32,469 bases of DNA from Actinomycetes bacterium. GTDB lineage: Bacteria; Actinomycetota; Humimicrobiia; Humimicrobiales; Humimicrobiaceae. The notes beneath the pieces are model-generated. The model was not told where the DNA came from, made no database searches, and worked only from the letters and a program-made list of their open reading frames with translations. A program made the translations under genes and the position numbers. Shown here in pieces: positions 21,446-32,227 of this stretch; the stretch's first letter is position 1; the number at the start of each line of letters is the position of its first letter. Where the stretch lies: positions 1 through 32,469 of the forward strand of contig JAIOXO010000019.1 in assembly GCA_022396035.1 (NCBI GenBank), written 5' to 3'.

Positions 21446-21742
21446 TTATTTCTCCATCAAAAATTTGTATTTTGAATCAACATGTACCGATTCCACTTTG
21501 GCCGAAATGCCTGCATTTATAGGCATGTTATCATAGCCTACTATTTTCCTGGCAGAACTTCCTCCCACTATCAGCACCTTGTCTCCGGTTCCAATTCCCA
21601 GTTTTTTATCCACAGCAACCACATATTTTTCTGTCTCTTCACCGGCCAGATCCAGCAATTTAACCAAAAATATTTTAGCTGCCTTCATGGTCTTGTCTTT
21701 TACGCTGCAGACCAGCTCTTTTTTAACTACACCTATATTCAC
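21446..21742 (-). CDS. BMC-P (EutN/CcmL-type) vertex protein 3
   Basis: 98 residues. The start MNIGVVKKELVCSVKDKTMK is less typical, but the middle LGIGTGDKVLIVGGSSARK is the clearest GVGxGE-VL-GSSAR signature of the five, and it ends with the usual AGISAKVESVHVD strand. Starts with an ATGA overlap with gene 2 (21742 against 21739), so translation is probably coupled. The N-terminal change (KKELVC where others have KVIGTV) may alter the contact with neighbouring hexamers. Confidence 0.88.
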   Translation of the reverse strand: MNIGVVKKELVCSVKDKTMKAAKIFLVKLLDLAGEETEKYVVAVDKKLGIGTGDKVLIVGGSSARKIVGYDNMPINAGISAKVESVHVDSKYKFLMEK

Positions 21743-22008
21743 TTCTCTTCCCCCCTGCCATCCAACCTGGCCACTATGGAAGTATCGGTAGGCACCTCTG
21801 CAGTCATATCGGTCATCTTGGAAGCACTGCCGGTGGTAATAAGTACCATATCACCATATCCCACATCTATGGTATCTACAGCTACGGTATAACTGTCAGT
21901 ATGGCTAAAATTACTGTCCAATATATTAACTACATATAATTGTACTGGATCTAACTGCTTCATTTTAGAAACTGAGGTTATGCTACCTACAACTTTTGCT
22001 ATATCCAT
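21739..22008 (-). CDS. BMC-P (EutN/CcmL-type) vertex protein 2
   Basis: 89 residues. MDIAKVVGSITSVSKMKQLD is a standard EutN/CcmL opening. The loop reads IDVGYGDMVLITTGSASKM, and the last strand is DTSIVARLDG followed by a short charged tail. It lies 2 bp after gene 1 and overlaps gene 3 by 4 bp. Each of the five copies differs strongly from the others, so this is not a recent tandem duplication. Confidence 0.9.
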   Translation of the reverse strand: MDIAKVVGSITSVSKMKQLDPVQLYVVNILDSNFSHTDSYTVAVDTIDVGYGDMVLITTGSASKMTDMTAEVPTDTSIVARLDGRGEEK

Positions 22009-22010
22009 AA

Positions 22011-22283
22011 TTATTCATACATATTTATTTTATCTATTTTTGCTACTATGGAAGCCCTGATAGGCACATTTTCTCTTCCCACAATATTGCTTACGGTGTC
22101 TCCGTCATCGGTAAGCAGCACTGTTTCTCCAACCCCCACTCCAATAGCATCCTCTACCAGATAATATTGATTGGATTGTTTTCCATAAGGATTGATAGCC
22201 TGGGCTATCTTAAGCTTGGTATTCTCAATTTTTTCCACTTTTATGGTACTTACTACAGTACCGATTACTCTGGCAATCTCCAT
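22011..22283 (-). CDS. BMC-P (EutN/CcmL-type) vertex protein 1
   Basis: 90 residues, first gene of the shell operon. It opens MEIARVIGTVVSTIKVEKIE, has IGVGVGETVLLTDDGDTVSN in the conserved turn and closes RASIVAKIDKINMYE. These proteins form pentamers that cap the twelve corners of microcompartment shells. In the usual GSSAR position it has acidic DDGDT, so the pentamer centre should be more negative than normal. A minus-strand extended -10 promoter lies about 45 bp upstream. Confidence 0.92.
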   Translation of the reverse strand: MEIARVIGTVVSTIKVEKIENTKLKIAQAINPYGKQSNQYYLVEDAIGVGVGETVLLTDDGDTVSNIVGRENVPIRASIVAKIDKINMYE

Positions 22284-25373: not shown

Positions 25374-25586
25374 TTATTTTTTGGTTTGTTCAAAATGTTT
25401 TCTTAGCAGTTCCAGTTGTTTGGCTATATTGGCCCTATCTTCTTGCAGGCAGTCCGTGTTATTGATTTTATCTGCCAGCGCTAAAGAAACCAGGGCTGAA
25501 AGAGATATGCCTAGCTTGTCAGCCTTATCTTTTGCTCTTTTCATCAGATCCCGGTCTAACCGGAAACTGTGCATTTTCTTGGACAT
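25374..25586 (-). CDS. Ribbon-helix-helix DNA-binding protein
   Basis: 70-residue protein. KMHSFRLDRDLMKRAKDKAD followed by KLGISLSALVSLALADKI has the strand-helix-helix layout of CopG/Arc-like regulators; a charged, probably coiled tail follows. No toxin gene lies beside it, so a transcription factor role is preferred over an antitoxin. Its promoter overlaps a perfect inverted repeat at 25603-25624, which fits autoregulation. The ATG at 25586 is only 6 bp from the -10, so the transcript may be leaderless; an in-frame ATG at 25574 is an alternative start. Confidence 0.8.
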   Translation of the reverse strand: MSKKMHSFRLDRDLMKRAKDKADKLGISLSALVSLALADKINNTDCLQEDRANIAKQLELLRKHFEQTKK

Positions 25587-25711: not shown

Positions 25712-26878
25712 ATGGCAGATAAAATATTTTTTGACCATGCCTCGGCTACGCCGGTTAATAAAGAAGTGCTGGATGAAATGCAGCCTTTCTTTTCCACCCA
25801 CTACGGCAATCCTTCCAGCCTGCATGATTTTGGTCAACAGGCCAAGGATGCACTGGAAGAAGCCCGCAGCAGGGTTGCCCGGCTTATAGGGGCTTCCCCG
25901 GAAGAGATTTATTTTACCTCCAGTGGTACAGAATCCAATAACTTTGCCTTATTCGGGCTGGCCAGGGCATTGCAGTCAAAAGGACAACATATAATCTCTT
26001 CCAGTATCGAGCATATATCCATACTGAATCCTTTAAAGGAACTAAAAAAAATGGGCTGGCAGTATACCCTGCTGCCCGTAGATGAATATGGTTTGGTGGA
26101 TGTAAAACAACTGGAAAAAGAGATAAGGGAAGATACGGCCCTCATAACTGTTATGCATGCCAATAACGAAGTAGGCACCATACAGAATATTAAAGATTTG
26201 GCCCAGATAGCCAGCAGCCACGATATTGTCTTTCATAGCGACGGAGTGGCAACAGCTGGTATTATAGAGGTGGATGTTAACCAGCTGGGGGTTGATGCTT
26301 ACAGTGTTTCGTCCCAGCAGATGTATGGGCCCAAGGGGGCAGCTGCTCTGTATATAAGGAAAGGCACCAGGGTAAAGCCTTTTATTATTGGAGGTACCCA
26401 GGAAAGCGGCAGAAGAGCGGGCACAGAAAATGTCCCGGCCATTGTCGGGTTTGGCAAAGCCGCAGAGCTGGCTAAAGCGGAGATGGATAAAAATAAAAAG
26501 CACCTTACCAGCTTAAGGGATCAACTTATTGAAGGCATTACCAAAAGCATAAAGAATGTAAAGCTCAACGGTCATCCGGAGCAGAGGCTTCCCGGAAATG
26601 TGCATTTTAGTTTTGAATATATAGAAGGCGAATCTATCCTTCTATTGCTTAATATGGAAGGAATAGCTGCGGCCAGCGGATCCTCCTGCGTTTCCCAGGC
26701 ATTAAAGAATAGCCAGGTGTTGCTGTCCATGGGCATTAGCCCTACTATGGCCCAGGGCTCAGTATTATTTTCACTGGGAAAATTTAATACTGAAAAAGAA
26801 GTTTTAAAAACTGTTGAGGTCTTGCCTCCAATAATTAAAAAATTAAGACAGATGTCACCTTTGTATAAGGAAGAATAG
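25712..26878 (+). CDS. NifS/IscS-like cysteine desulfurase homologue lacking the PLP lysine
   Basis: Class V aminotransferase-fold protein of 388 residues with the whole NifS frame: FFDHASATPVNKEV, YGNPSSLHDFG, YFTSSGTESNNFA, HANNEVGTIQ, GTQESGRRAGTEN and the catalytic-cysteine loop ASGSSC (C326). The PLP lysine motif is changed: family members read S-x-H-K-x-x-GPKG, here it is SSQQMYGPKG, with Gln202-Gln203 for His-Lys. The codons are CAG CAG (26315-26320). HSDGVATAG also replaces the usual DAxQ segment. A normal desulfurase reaction is therefore unlikely. First gene of an operon with IscU, zinc ribbon and TusA genes. The ATG follows AAAGGAAAGGACAATTT. Confidence 0.9.
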   Translation: MADKIFFDHASATPVNKEVLDEMQPFFSTHYGNPSSLHDFGQQAKDALEEARSRVARLIGASPEEIYFTSSGTESNNFALFGLARALQSKGQHIISSSIEHISILNPLKELKKMGWQYTLLPVDEYGLVDVKQLEKEIREDTALITVMHANNEVGTIQNIKDLAQIASSHDIVFHSDGVATAGIIEVDVNQLGVDAYSVSSQQMYGPKGAAALYIRKGTRVKPFIIGGTQESGRRAGTENVPAIVGFGKAAELAKAEMDKNKKHLTSLRDQLIEGITKSIKNVKLNGHPEQRLPGNVHFSFEYIEGESILLLLNMEGIAAASGSSCVSQALKNSQVLLSMGISPTMAQGSVLFSLGKFNTEKEVLKTVEVLPPIIKKLRQMSPLYKEE

Positions 26879-26891
26879 AAAAGGGGTATTT

Positions 26892-27275
26892 ATGGTTACA
26901 TATAGCGATAAGGTAATGGATCATTTTATGTCTCCCAGGAATGTGGGAGAGATAAAGGACGCAGATGGTATAGGTGAAGTAGGCAATCCGACCTGCGGGG
27001 ATATGATGACCTTTTATATAAAGGTCAAGGATAATAAATTGGAAGATGTGAAATTTAAGACTTTTGGTTGTGGGGCTGCCATTGCCGTTTCCAGCATGGT
27101 CAGCGAAATAGCCAAGGGTAAAACTTTGGATGAAGCTCTCAAAATCACCAATAAAAGTGTTGCAGAGGAGTTAGGAGGTCTTCCCAAAAACAAGATGCAT
27201 TGCTCCAATCTGGGAGCAGATGCTCTTCACAAAGCTATTGAAGATTACCAGAAAAAGAATAAAAAGAAAAAATAG
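26892..27275 (+). CDS. IscU/NifU-N-type iron-sulfur cluster scaffold
   Basis: 127-residue scaffold on which Fe-S clusters are assembled before transfer to apoproteins. The three ligand cysteines are present: C35 in NPTCGDMM, C60 in FGCGAAIA and C104 in MHCSNLGADAL. Asp37, next to the first cysteine, is also kept. The C-terminus is lysine-rich. It begins 13 bp after the NifS-like gene. Scaffold intact but partner without its PLP lysine is a striking pairing. Confidence 0.94.
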   Translation: MVTYSDKVMDHFMSPRNVGEIKDADGIGEVGNPTCGDMMTFYIKVKDNKLEDVKFKTFGCGAAIAVSSMVSEIAKGKTLDEALKITNKSVAEELGGLPKNKMHCSNLGADALHKAIEDYQKKNKKKK

Positions 27276-27283
27276 GAGAAGCC

Positions 27284-27457
27284 ATGGTTAAAGATAAAAA
27301 GTCCACATGCAAGTGTCCGTACTGTGATACTGATATAGAATTAAAATCATCCGTAATTTGTACAGTATGTGATTTAAAGATTTCACGCTGCCCTGAATGC
27401 GGTTACCCTATTTCAGAGAATATTGAAAAATGTCCTAACTGCGGAGTAAAGTTATGA
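27284..27457 (+). CDS. Small double zinc-ribbon protein
   Basis: A 57-residue ORF between the IscU and TusA genes, with AGGAGAAGCC in front of its ATG. It has nine cysteines, starting STCKCPYC, then CTVC, CPECG and CPNCG, a pattern that suggests two zinc (or iron) binding ribbons. Its stop overlaps the next ATG as ATGA, so translation is coupled with the TusA-like gene. No specific family recognised; it might act as a metal- or sulfur-handling accessory of the cluster. Confidence 0.8.
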   Translation: MVKDKKSTCKCPYCDTDIELKSSVICTVCDLKISRCPECGYPISENIEKCPNCGVKL

Positions 27458-27696
27458 ATGAGATAAATATAGACCAGGAACTTGATTGCATAGGTTTATT
27501 TTGTCCTGCTCCCATTTATGAAACCAGGAAGAAAATTAATTCAATGAAGGAGGGCCAGGTTTTAAAAATGACTGCTGATGACCCTGGTTCTGAGGCTGAT
27601 ATAAAAAGCTGGGCAAAGACCACTGGGAATGAACTTTTCAAGATAGAAAAGGAAGGGGAAACCTTTATTTTCTATATTAAAAAAACCTCAGGATAG
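27454..27696 (+). CDS. TusA/SirA-family sulfur carrier
   Basis: 80 residues. LDCIGLFCPAPIYETRKKIN carries the conserved CPxP motif with the sulfur-carrying cysteine near residue 18. MKEGQVLKMTADDPGSEADI is the standard middle of TusA-like proteins. These accept sulfane sulfur from a desulfurase and pass it on in tRNA thiolation or other sulfur transfer. It ends the operon, 4-bp coupled to the zinc-ribbon gene. Since the operon's desulfurase homologue lacks its lysine, the sulfur donor is not obvious. Confidence 0.92.
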   Translation: MNEINIDQELDCIGLFCPAPIYETRKKINSMKEGQVLKMTADDPGSEADIKSWAKTTGNELFKIEKEGETFIFYIKKTSG

Positions 27697-27739: not shown

Positions 27740-27813
27740 TGGGGAGTAGTCTAGTGGCAGGACATGCGGCTCTGGACCGTAGGACGGAGGTTCGAATCCT
27801 CCCTCCCCAGCCA
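27740..27813 (+). tRNA. tRNA-Gln (anticodon CTG)
   Basis: Folds as a full cloverleaf of 74 nt. The acceptor stem TGGGGAG pairs with CTCCCCA, the discriminator is G and CCA is encoded. The T arm is GGAGG-TTCGAAT-CCTCC. The anticodon loop CTCTGGA gives CTG, reading CAG. The U1-A72 pair is typical of tRNA-Gln. The AT-rich accessory region begins right after it, but I found no repeated copy of its 3' end that would mark an integration site. Confidence 0.95.
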
Positions 27814-31591: not shown

Positions 31592-32227
31592 ATGGACATA
31601 AGAAACCTCAAGATAAAAATATCTGTATTTCTAATTTTCATACTTATCTCCTGGCTGGCAGGGTAGTCCCTAATACATGCTTCTGATGCTAAATCAAACT
31701 CTGGGACTGAAGAACCTGCCGGTTATATAAGCAATCTGCTTGAAACTGTTAGATCCTTTGTAGATAACATCAAATCACTTTTTGGAGTAAATAGTGTGGA
31801 ATCTGCCAAGGGATATGATGAATCAGAAGACGGTGGAGAAAAAGAAGATGAAGCTGAGGGCGAAGAAGACAACGGTAGCGGAAATAACTTTGGTGAAGAG
31901 ATATCAAATATAGCACAGGAGCTCAGAACCGGGGGTTCTACTGTAGATCAACTAGTAGACAAATCAACCTCTACCCACCTGCAGGTTTTAGCAGAAGTCC
32001 ATAAAAAGGTCCCACAAGCTGCAAAGGATACCACACTGAAAGCAATGAAAAATAGTGTGAAGGGAAATGCCGCTGCACAGGATGCTTTAAATAGGAAAGA
32101 TGCTTCTAATAACGGTAGCGAAGATGAAGAAGATGAAGAGAAAGAAGATGGTCCGAAAAGCAGAGGCGTACATAATGCCTCTGAGATGGGCAAGCAGAAG
32201 AGAAATAATAATCCTTCCAATAGATAA
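31592..32227 (+). pseudogene. Secreted DUF5667-like acidic protein with amber stop in signal peptide
   Basis: The frame from the ATG at 31592 has 211 sense codons but is interrupted at codon 25 by TAG (31664-31666). The first 24 residues form a basic start and hydrophobic core (KIKISVFLIFILISWLAG); after the stop comes SLIHASDAK, a plausible signal-peptidase site. Downstream are a Glu/Asp-rich linker, then THLQVLAEVHKKVPQAAKDT and a following helix much like DUF5667 proteins, and an acidic then basic tail. A GTG at 31796 could restart translation but would make a non-secreted fragment. Either a disabled gene or a single-base error. Confidence 0.65.

Follow-up and report, generated by a model that had tools for sequence, protein, structure and literature searches.

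ISC-type cluster assembly is taken to require a cysteine desulfurase for its first step, A. fulgidus IscS being the exception that is usually cited. The locus described here raises the question of what a NifS-like protein does when the lysine that binds pyridoxal phosphate (PLP) is missing from it and the next gene encodes an IscU scaffold. We analyzed the window, that is, the whole stretch of 32,469 nucleotides from contig JAIOXO010000019.1 of an Actinomycetes bacterium (Humimicrobiaceae), and compared its NifS-like protein with relatives that carry the His-Lys pair (HK proteins) and with others that lack the lysine (K-less proteins). Our analysis suggests that a bacterial group keeps a dead NifS beside a scaffold and sulfur carriers, and that sulfur is loaded onto Fe-S clusters by another route.

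The NifS-like gene and its neighbors

The features of the operon, in order along the window, are:

25712..26878, + strand: NifS/IscS-like protein without the PLP lysine, 388 aa; intact ORF with PF00266 and TIGR03402 matches, AlphaFold pLDDT 93.8
26249..26251, + strand: A180 codon, replacing Q183 of E. coli IscS (PLP contact); Q in 44/44 HK and 1/32 K-less proteins
26315..26320, + strand: Q202-Q203 (CAG CAG), replacing H205-K206 of E. coli IscS, from ORF translation and alignment
26687..26689, + strand: C326 codon, retained; counterpart of C328, the persulfide cysteine in E. coli IscS; invariant in alignments
26765..26767, + strand: L352 codon, replacing R354 of E. coli IscS (binds the substrate carboxylate); R in 44/44 HK and 0/32 K-less proteins
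26892..27275, + strand: IscU scaffold, 127 aa, of the M38/V66/G108 subfamily; only strong NifU_N match in the genome
27284..27457, + strand: double zinc ribbon, 57 aa, with four CxxC knuckles; fused to IscU or TusA in relatives
27454..27696, + strand: sulfur carrier TusA, 80 aa, retaining the CPxP cysteine; overlaps the end of the zinc-ribbon ORF with its start; no other TusA in the genome

The two glutamine codons lie exactly at the positions that align with H205-K206 of E. coli IscS, within the motif SSQQMYGPKG of an intact 388-residue ORF. The absence of the Schiff-base lysine, first pointed out in a sequence-only reading of this DNA, is thus confirmed, as are that reading's observations that the frame is uninterrupted, that the catalytic cysteine loop is in place and that the next gene is a complete IscU (209.6 bits against TIGR03419, for a cut-off of 187.9). 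The NifS-like protein has a full-length Aminotran_5 domain of fold type I (PF00266, E 2.8e-84) and scores 498.7 bits against the NCBIfam NifS equivalog TIGR03402, below its cut-off of 530.75, whereas the HK paralogue on contig C31 of the same genome scores 544.4 bits, above it. Standard annotation pipelines would label such K-less proteins cysteine desulfurases, which calls for caution among annotators. In the AlphaFold model, confidence is low only at loop 325-331, on which C326 sits and which we take to be mobile. The model is structurally closest to human NFS1 complexes and to A. fulgidus IscS (4hvk, rmsd 1.2 Å, about 45% identity), and IscS is also matched.

The window IscU (PF01592, E 7.3e-51) has the ligand cysteines C35, C60 and C103, and the TusA (PF01206, E 2.6e-24) has a CPAP motif, its score against the NCBIfam TusA equivalog being 62.4, below the cut-off of 78. 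Neither a second strong NifU_N match nor a second TusA was found in the source genome. Elsewhere, this genome encodes DsrE2 (contig C25), one SufB-type protein (C20) and two HK NifS, one on C31, preceded by genes for an Rrf2-type regulator and a cysteine synthase, and the other on C5; indeed, an HK NifS is encoded in every K-less genome that was checked for paralogues.

Several other features of the window were recorded. Just upstream of nifS, a divergent gene (25374-25586, - strand) encodes a protein of 70 aa that weakly matches RelB/DinJ antitoxins, with a score below cut-off, and a tRNA-Gln (CTG) lies directly 3' of tusA (27740-27813, + strand). Two EutN/CcmL microcompartment shell vertex proteins (21739-22283, - strand) point to a bacterial microcompartment locus nearby. 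Close to the contig end, an ORF that begins with GTG and is strongly acidic and of low complexity (31796-32227, + strand) may be due to chance.

Residues lost, residues kept and selection on the gene

The sequence-only reading had placed the change at the two glutamines alone; the pair is real, but the protein also lost its Q183 and R354 equivalents and further residues of the active-site region, which that reading had missed. To define such losses, columns were compared between 32 K-less and 44 HK proteins, a column being called lost when conserved in at least 85% of the HK set and in less than 35% of the K-less set. Ten columns were found (E. coli numbering): Q183, H205, K206, R354, A11, T12, G74, T99, A106 and P335, several of the last six lying beside the Cys loop or active-site residues such as H104 and T76. 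In this protein family, R354 is established as the arginine that binds the substrate carboxylate. Conversely, 66 of the 107 HK-conserved columns stay conserved in K-less proteins. The window protein follows this pattern, without K206, H205, Q183 and R354 equivalents and with the C328 equivalent, the fold and the IscU-contact motifs.

A survey of 108 distinct adjacent iscU-nifS pairs, whose sequences are related, so that pair counts are not independent events, showed that K206 and R354 behave in an all-or-none fashion: both are present in 58 pairs, both are absent in 50, and no pair is mixed. The C328 equivalent is present wherever it could be read. At the HK position, K-less proteins have QQ, DL/DM/DG, SM, NQ or HQ, so that the place of the lysine is taken by Q, L, M or G depending on the lineage, and by D in the A. 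fulgidus type. Such variation resembles loss rather than the gain of a new catalyst, and QQ is accordingly disfavored as a new catalytic pair. One relative (L140) has kept Q183 and H205 and has lost K206 and R354, which indicates that the K and R loss can come before the rest.

In the alignment, the positions kept in K-less proteins are C328, H104, D180, T243, S384-P385-L386 of the LR-SPL stretch at the C-terminus and the E309-G310-E311 motif of helix alpha 8; T76 is also retained, and N155 is retained in the QQ clade but lost in half of the K-less reference set. Of these, the E-G-E motif and the LR-SPL stretch are where IscS contacts IscU (PMC2854127). As for TusA docking on NifS, K-less proteins more often have acidic residues at E. 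coli positions 49 and 52, and W45 is not kept, a comparison that is weak either way.

With neither K206 for covalent PLP binding, nor the PLP contacts Q183 and H205, nor R354, the window NifS should not take sulfur from cysteine. In E. coli IscS, both K206A and Q183E lack desulfurase activity (PMC9978102). Together with these mutants and with A. fulgidus IscS, the residues lost make a strong case that the window protein would be without L-cysteine desulfurase activity.

The QQ motif is present at nine separate loci (L006-L013, L016), and is carried by 17 of the 35 sampled genomes of the window's family, source genome included, among relatives down to 61% protein identity. The sequence-only reading proposed a search for QQ homologues next to iscU, zinc ribbon and tusA: iscU adjoins them every time, and tusA lies within the fetched stretch in 15 of the 17 genomes. 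Gln-Gln is constant while its codons switch synonymously between CAG and CAA. The dN/dS of the window nifS is 0.05-0.06 relative to members of the genus and family, and about 0.05-0.09 between divergent relatives overall, approximate values as synonymous sites are near saturation; it is 0.18-0.23 between very close pairs. Constant glutamines in spite of synonymous changes, together with low dN/dS, show that QQ is real and under selection, and the QQ nifS evolves under purifying selection. A sequencing error, which the reading had argued against, and likewise an assembly error, is ruled out by the nine loci, the 17 genomes and the synonymous codon changes.

A matching IscU, gene fusions and distribution

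The IscU proteins of K-less operons form a recognizable subfamily, with M38, V66 and G108 adjoining the ligand cysteines C35, C60 and C103. V66 and G108 occur together in 48 of 50 K-less pairs versus 1 of 58 HK pairs; the two K-less pairs without them are of the A. fulgidus type (ND), and the lone HK pair that has them is L041. In the IscU tree, all K-less-linked IscUs and one HK-labelled row fall in one supported set (97/92). TusA was detected in 42/50 K-less loci versus 6/58 HK loci, figures that are indicative only since fetched lengths differ. HK nifS-iscU loci with a TusA match were also seen in one family (f23; L215, L216, L218, L220, L221, L223).

A phylum-wide sample of 397 genomes was queried with IscU. 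Outside the window's family (f1), the typical operon reads nifS(K-)-iscU-zinc ribbon-dsrE2-tusA, with DL, DM, DG or SM replacing HK, and DsrE2 (PF13686) lies between zinc ribbon and tusA in most of these operons. Loci of the Thermodesulfobacteriota type (L049, L055, L064, L076) have an NQ motif and iscU upstream; IscU::ZnR is present there, and no TusA was seen near them.

L153, L064 and L041 carry the zinc ribbon as a C-terminal fusion on IscU; in L008-L011, L016, L093-L095, L097, L098, L100 and L148 it is an N-terminal fusion on TusA. That the zinc ribbon is joined to either partner (IscU::ZnR or ZnR::TusA) speaks for a joint function of the three proteins. The tie of the K-less protein to the pair formed by iscU and the ZnR::TusA fusion is not universal, as L148 (G015:C11, 1501-2192) has these two genes and no adjoining nifS in a genome that is 98% complete. 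In a broken relative of the operon, L154 (G035:C91, 4861-7207), nifS has an in-frame TAG and an AQG motif and iscU is missing, with zinc ribbon, dsrE2 and tusA still in place. An HK homologue in the same operon, which the sequence-only reading had named as evidence against its interpretation, was met in one ambiguous case: on an Eisenbacteria contig (L041, 1-2377), a truncated nifS of K-less type, an IscU::zinc-ribbon fusion and an HK nifS follow one another.

Possible roles and known systems

We favor, with modest confidence, a role in which the window NifS is a dead desulfurase that provides IscU with a cysteine ligand or passes persulfide on to it, TusA bringing in the sulfur. The protein would dock on its dedicated IscU, and C326 could either coordinate the nascent [2Fe-2S] cluster, as the Cys of A. 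fulgidus IscS does, or act as a persulfide relay. Operon structure and gene fusions suggest that sulfur may reach the NifS-IscU complex via TusA, plus DsrE2 where present, and that the zinc ribbon may join TusA and IscU. TusA itself might be loaded either by ordinary HK desulfurases of the same cell or from inorganic sulfur. In E. coli the flow runs from IscS to TusA, and a transfer from TusA to a K-less NifS would be the reverse. Several points count against the proposed role: the two HK NifS of the source genome make cysteine-derived sulfur available, the residues kept around the cofactor site would allow non-covalent PLP binding, TusA could serve tRNA thiolation and merely share the operon, L148 has iscU and ZnR::TusA without an adjoining nifS, and TusA was not seen near the NQ-type loci. 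It is a rather speculative idea that the cluster route would do without any cysteine desulfurase, TusA and DsrE2 bringing inorganic sulfane sulfur, the K-less NifS Cys accepting it, and the dedicated IscU receiving it via the zinc-ribbon bridge.

The most serious competitor, although a less probable one, is that NifS is only a cysteine-ligand and docking platform for IscU, free sulfide being used and TusA having a separate task such as tRNA thiolation. It has an exact precedent in A. fulgidus IscS (PMC7585200), where the same four residues are lost by alignment, and it agrees with the NQ-type loci, where IscU::ZnR was seen and TusA was not detected nearby; against it stand the excess of TusA near K-less pairs (42/50, versus 6/58 for HK pairs, with unequal fetched lengths) and the fusion of the zinc ribbon to IscU or TusA. 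That the K-less NifS is a regulatory subunit, a heterodimer partner or competitor of the cell's HK NifS that steers sulfur to this IscU, appears improbable. The HK NifS encoded in every K-less genome checked for paralogues, and the flanking of one IscU::zinc-ribbon gene by both NifS types in L041, speak for this arrangement, but the HK genes of the source genome sit away from the operon (on C31 and C5), and at a divergence of about 46-48% the two types are less apt to form heterodimers.

The sequence-only reading had offered another chemistry or binding of PMP, besides sulfur transfer or scaffold binding. The latter is the best remaining idea; the former is not supported, since R354, Q183 and H205 are gone too and the replacement of the lysine differs by lineage. 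An enzyme that still uses PLP or PMP with an altered chemistry thus seems very unlikely to us. Non-covalent PLP binding is possible given that H104, D180, T76 and T243 are kept (N155 too in the QQ clade), and some PLP stays in E. coli IscS K206A (PMC9978102), but R354, Q183 and H205 disappeared along with K206, replacements vary, and N155 is lost in half of the K-less reference set. Decay of the window nifS is hardly credible: the in-frame stop and missing iscU of the G035 copy (L154), and the G015 iscU and ZnR::TusA without adjoining nifS, would fit it, whereas the intact ORF, the low dN/dS relative to genus and family relatives and a QQ invariant in 17 genomes rule it out for this gene.

A bacterial K-less set that is separate, selected and widespread, and that combines the loss of K206, H205, Q183 and R354 with its own IscU subfamily and fused sulfur-carrier modules, would mean that partnering with the scaffold has repeatedly come apart from cysteine desulfuration, possibly where conditions are anaerobic and rich in sulfide. 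In the literature searched, whose coverage leaves out most subscription journals, no description of bacterial K-less NifS-IscU-ZnR-TusA operons was found. The closest known system is A. fulgidus IscS (4eb5, 4eb7, 4hvk; D199K mutant 4r5f), described in PMC7585200 as inactive, with Asp in place of Lys and a Cys that is a ligand to the [2Fe-2S] cluster on IscU. It shares with the window NifS the NifS fold, the active-site Cys and an IscU partner, and the equivalents of K206, H205, Q183 and R354 are all replaced (SSND, DATAS and LLLTLG in A. fulgidus). By alignment, the window NifS resembles it in the residues lost and kept. The two differ in that the A. fulgidus IscU is without V66 and G108 and in that A. 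fulgidus IscS groups with bacterial ND-type proteins (100/99), while the window type forms the other group, together with the HK protein 9wep (100/97), in a tree computed without the four columns Q183, H205, K206 and R354. The bacterial ND-type proteins, L201 (G041:C23) and L217 (G039:C83), adjoin an IscU with ordinary signature; L217 has a TusA match, and the surroundings of the L201 pair yielded neither zinc ribbon nor TusA. Placing all K-less proteins in one clade is rejected, though marginally, when the bacterial ND types are included (p-AU 0.047; 0.088 in an earlier 55-row set without ND proteins), so that the window NifS likely, but marginally so, comes from a K-less lineage separate from that of A. 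fulgidus. The cysteine desulfurase 9wep, whose sequence is the nearest among solved structures (428 bits), is placed within the K-less clade and, unlike the window NifS, retains Q183, H205, K206 and R354; monophyly of the window type excluding it is neither supported nor rejected (p-AU of 0.35 in the 55-row set and 0.20 with the ND types).

Other systems, compared by description only in the case of Methanosarcina acetivorans IscS1, share some of these traits. This archaeal protein is reported, in PMC7585200, to lack the catalytic lysine and to form inclusion bodies, and an A. fulgidus-like role was suggested for it. The MIS (MisS-MisU) and canonical ISC (IscS-IscU) systems likewise pair a desulfurase-like gene with a scaffold gene, MIS consisting of IscS/IscU homologue pairs (PMC12442378), but MisS and IscS are described as cysteine desulfurases while the window NifS is without the catalytic residues, and its operon adds a zinc ribbon and TusA (and DsrE2 in relatives). 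The rhd-tusA-dsrE2 clusters of sulfur oxidisers also have TusA with DsrE2 as sulfur carriers, although Metallosphaera DsrE2B reacted with none of the compounds tested (PMC4175335); these clusters are tied to Dsr or Hdr energy metabolism, whereas here the tie is to NifS-IscU and the operon has no rhodanese. The idea of a non-catalytic NifS has an archaeal precedent, and the bacterial variant is real, conserved and under-described; its new elements, on the present evidence, are a bacterial lineage, the joint presence or absence of K206 and R354, an IscU signature that goes with the K-less state and the association with TusA, zinc ribbon and DsrE2.
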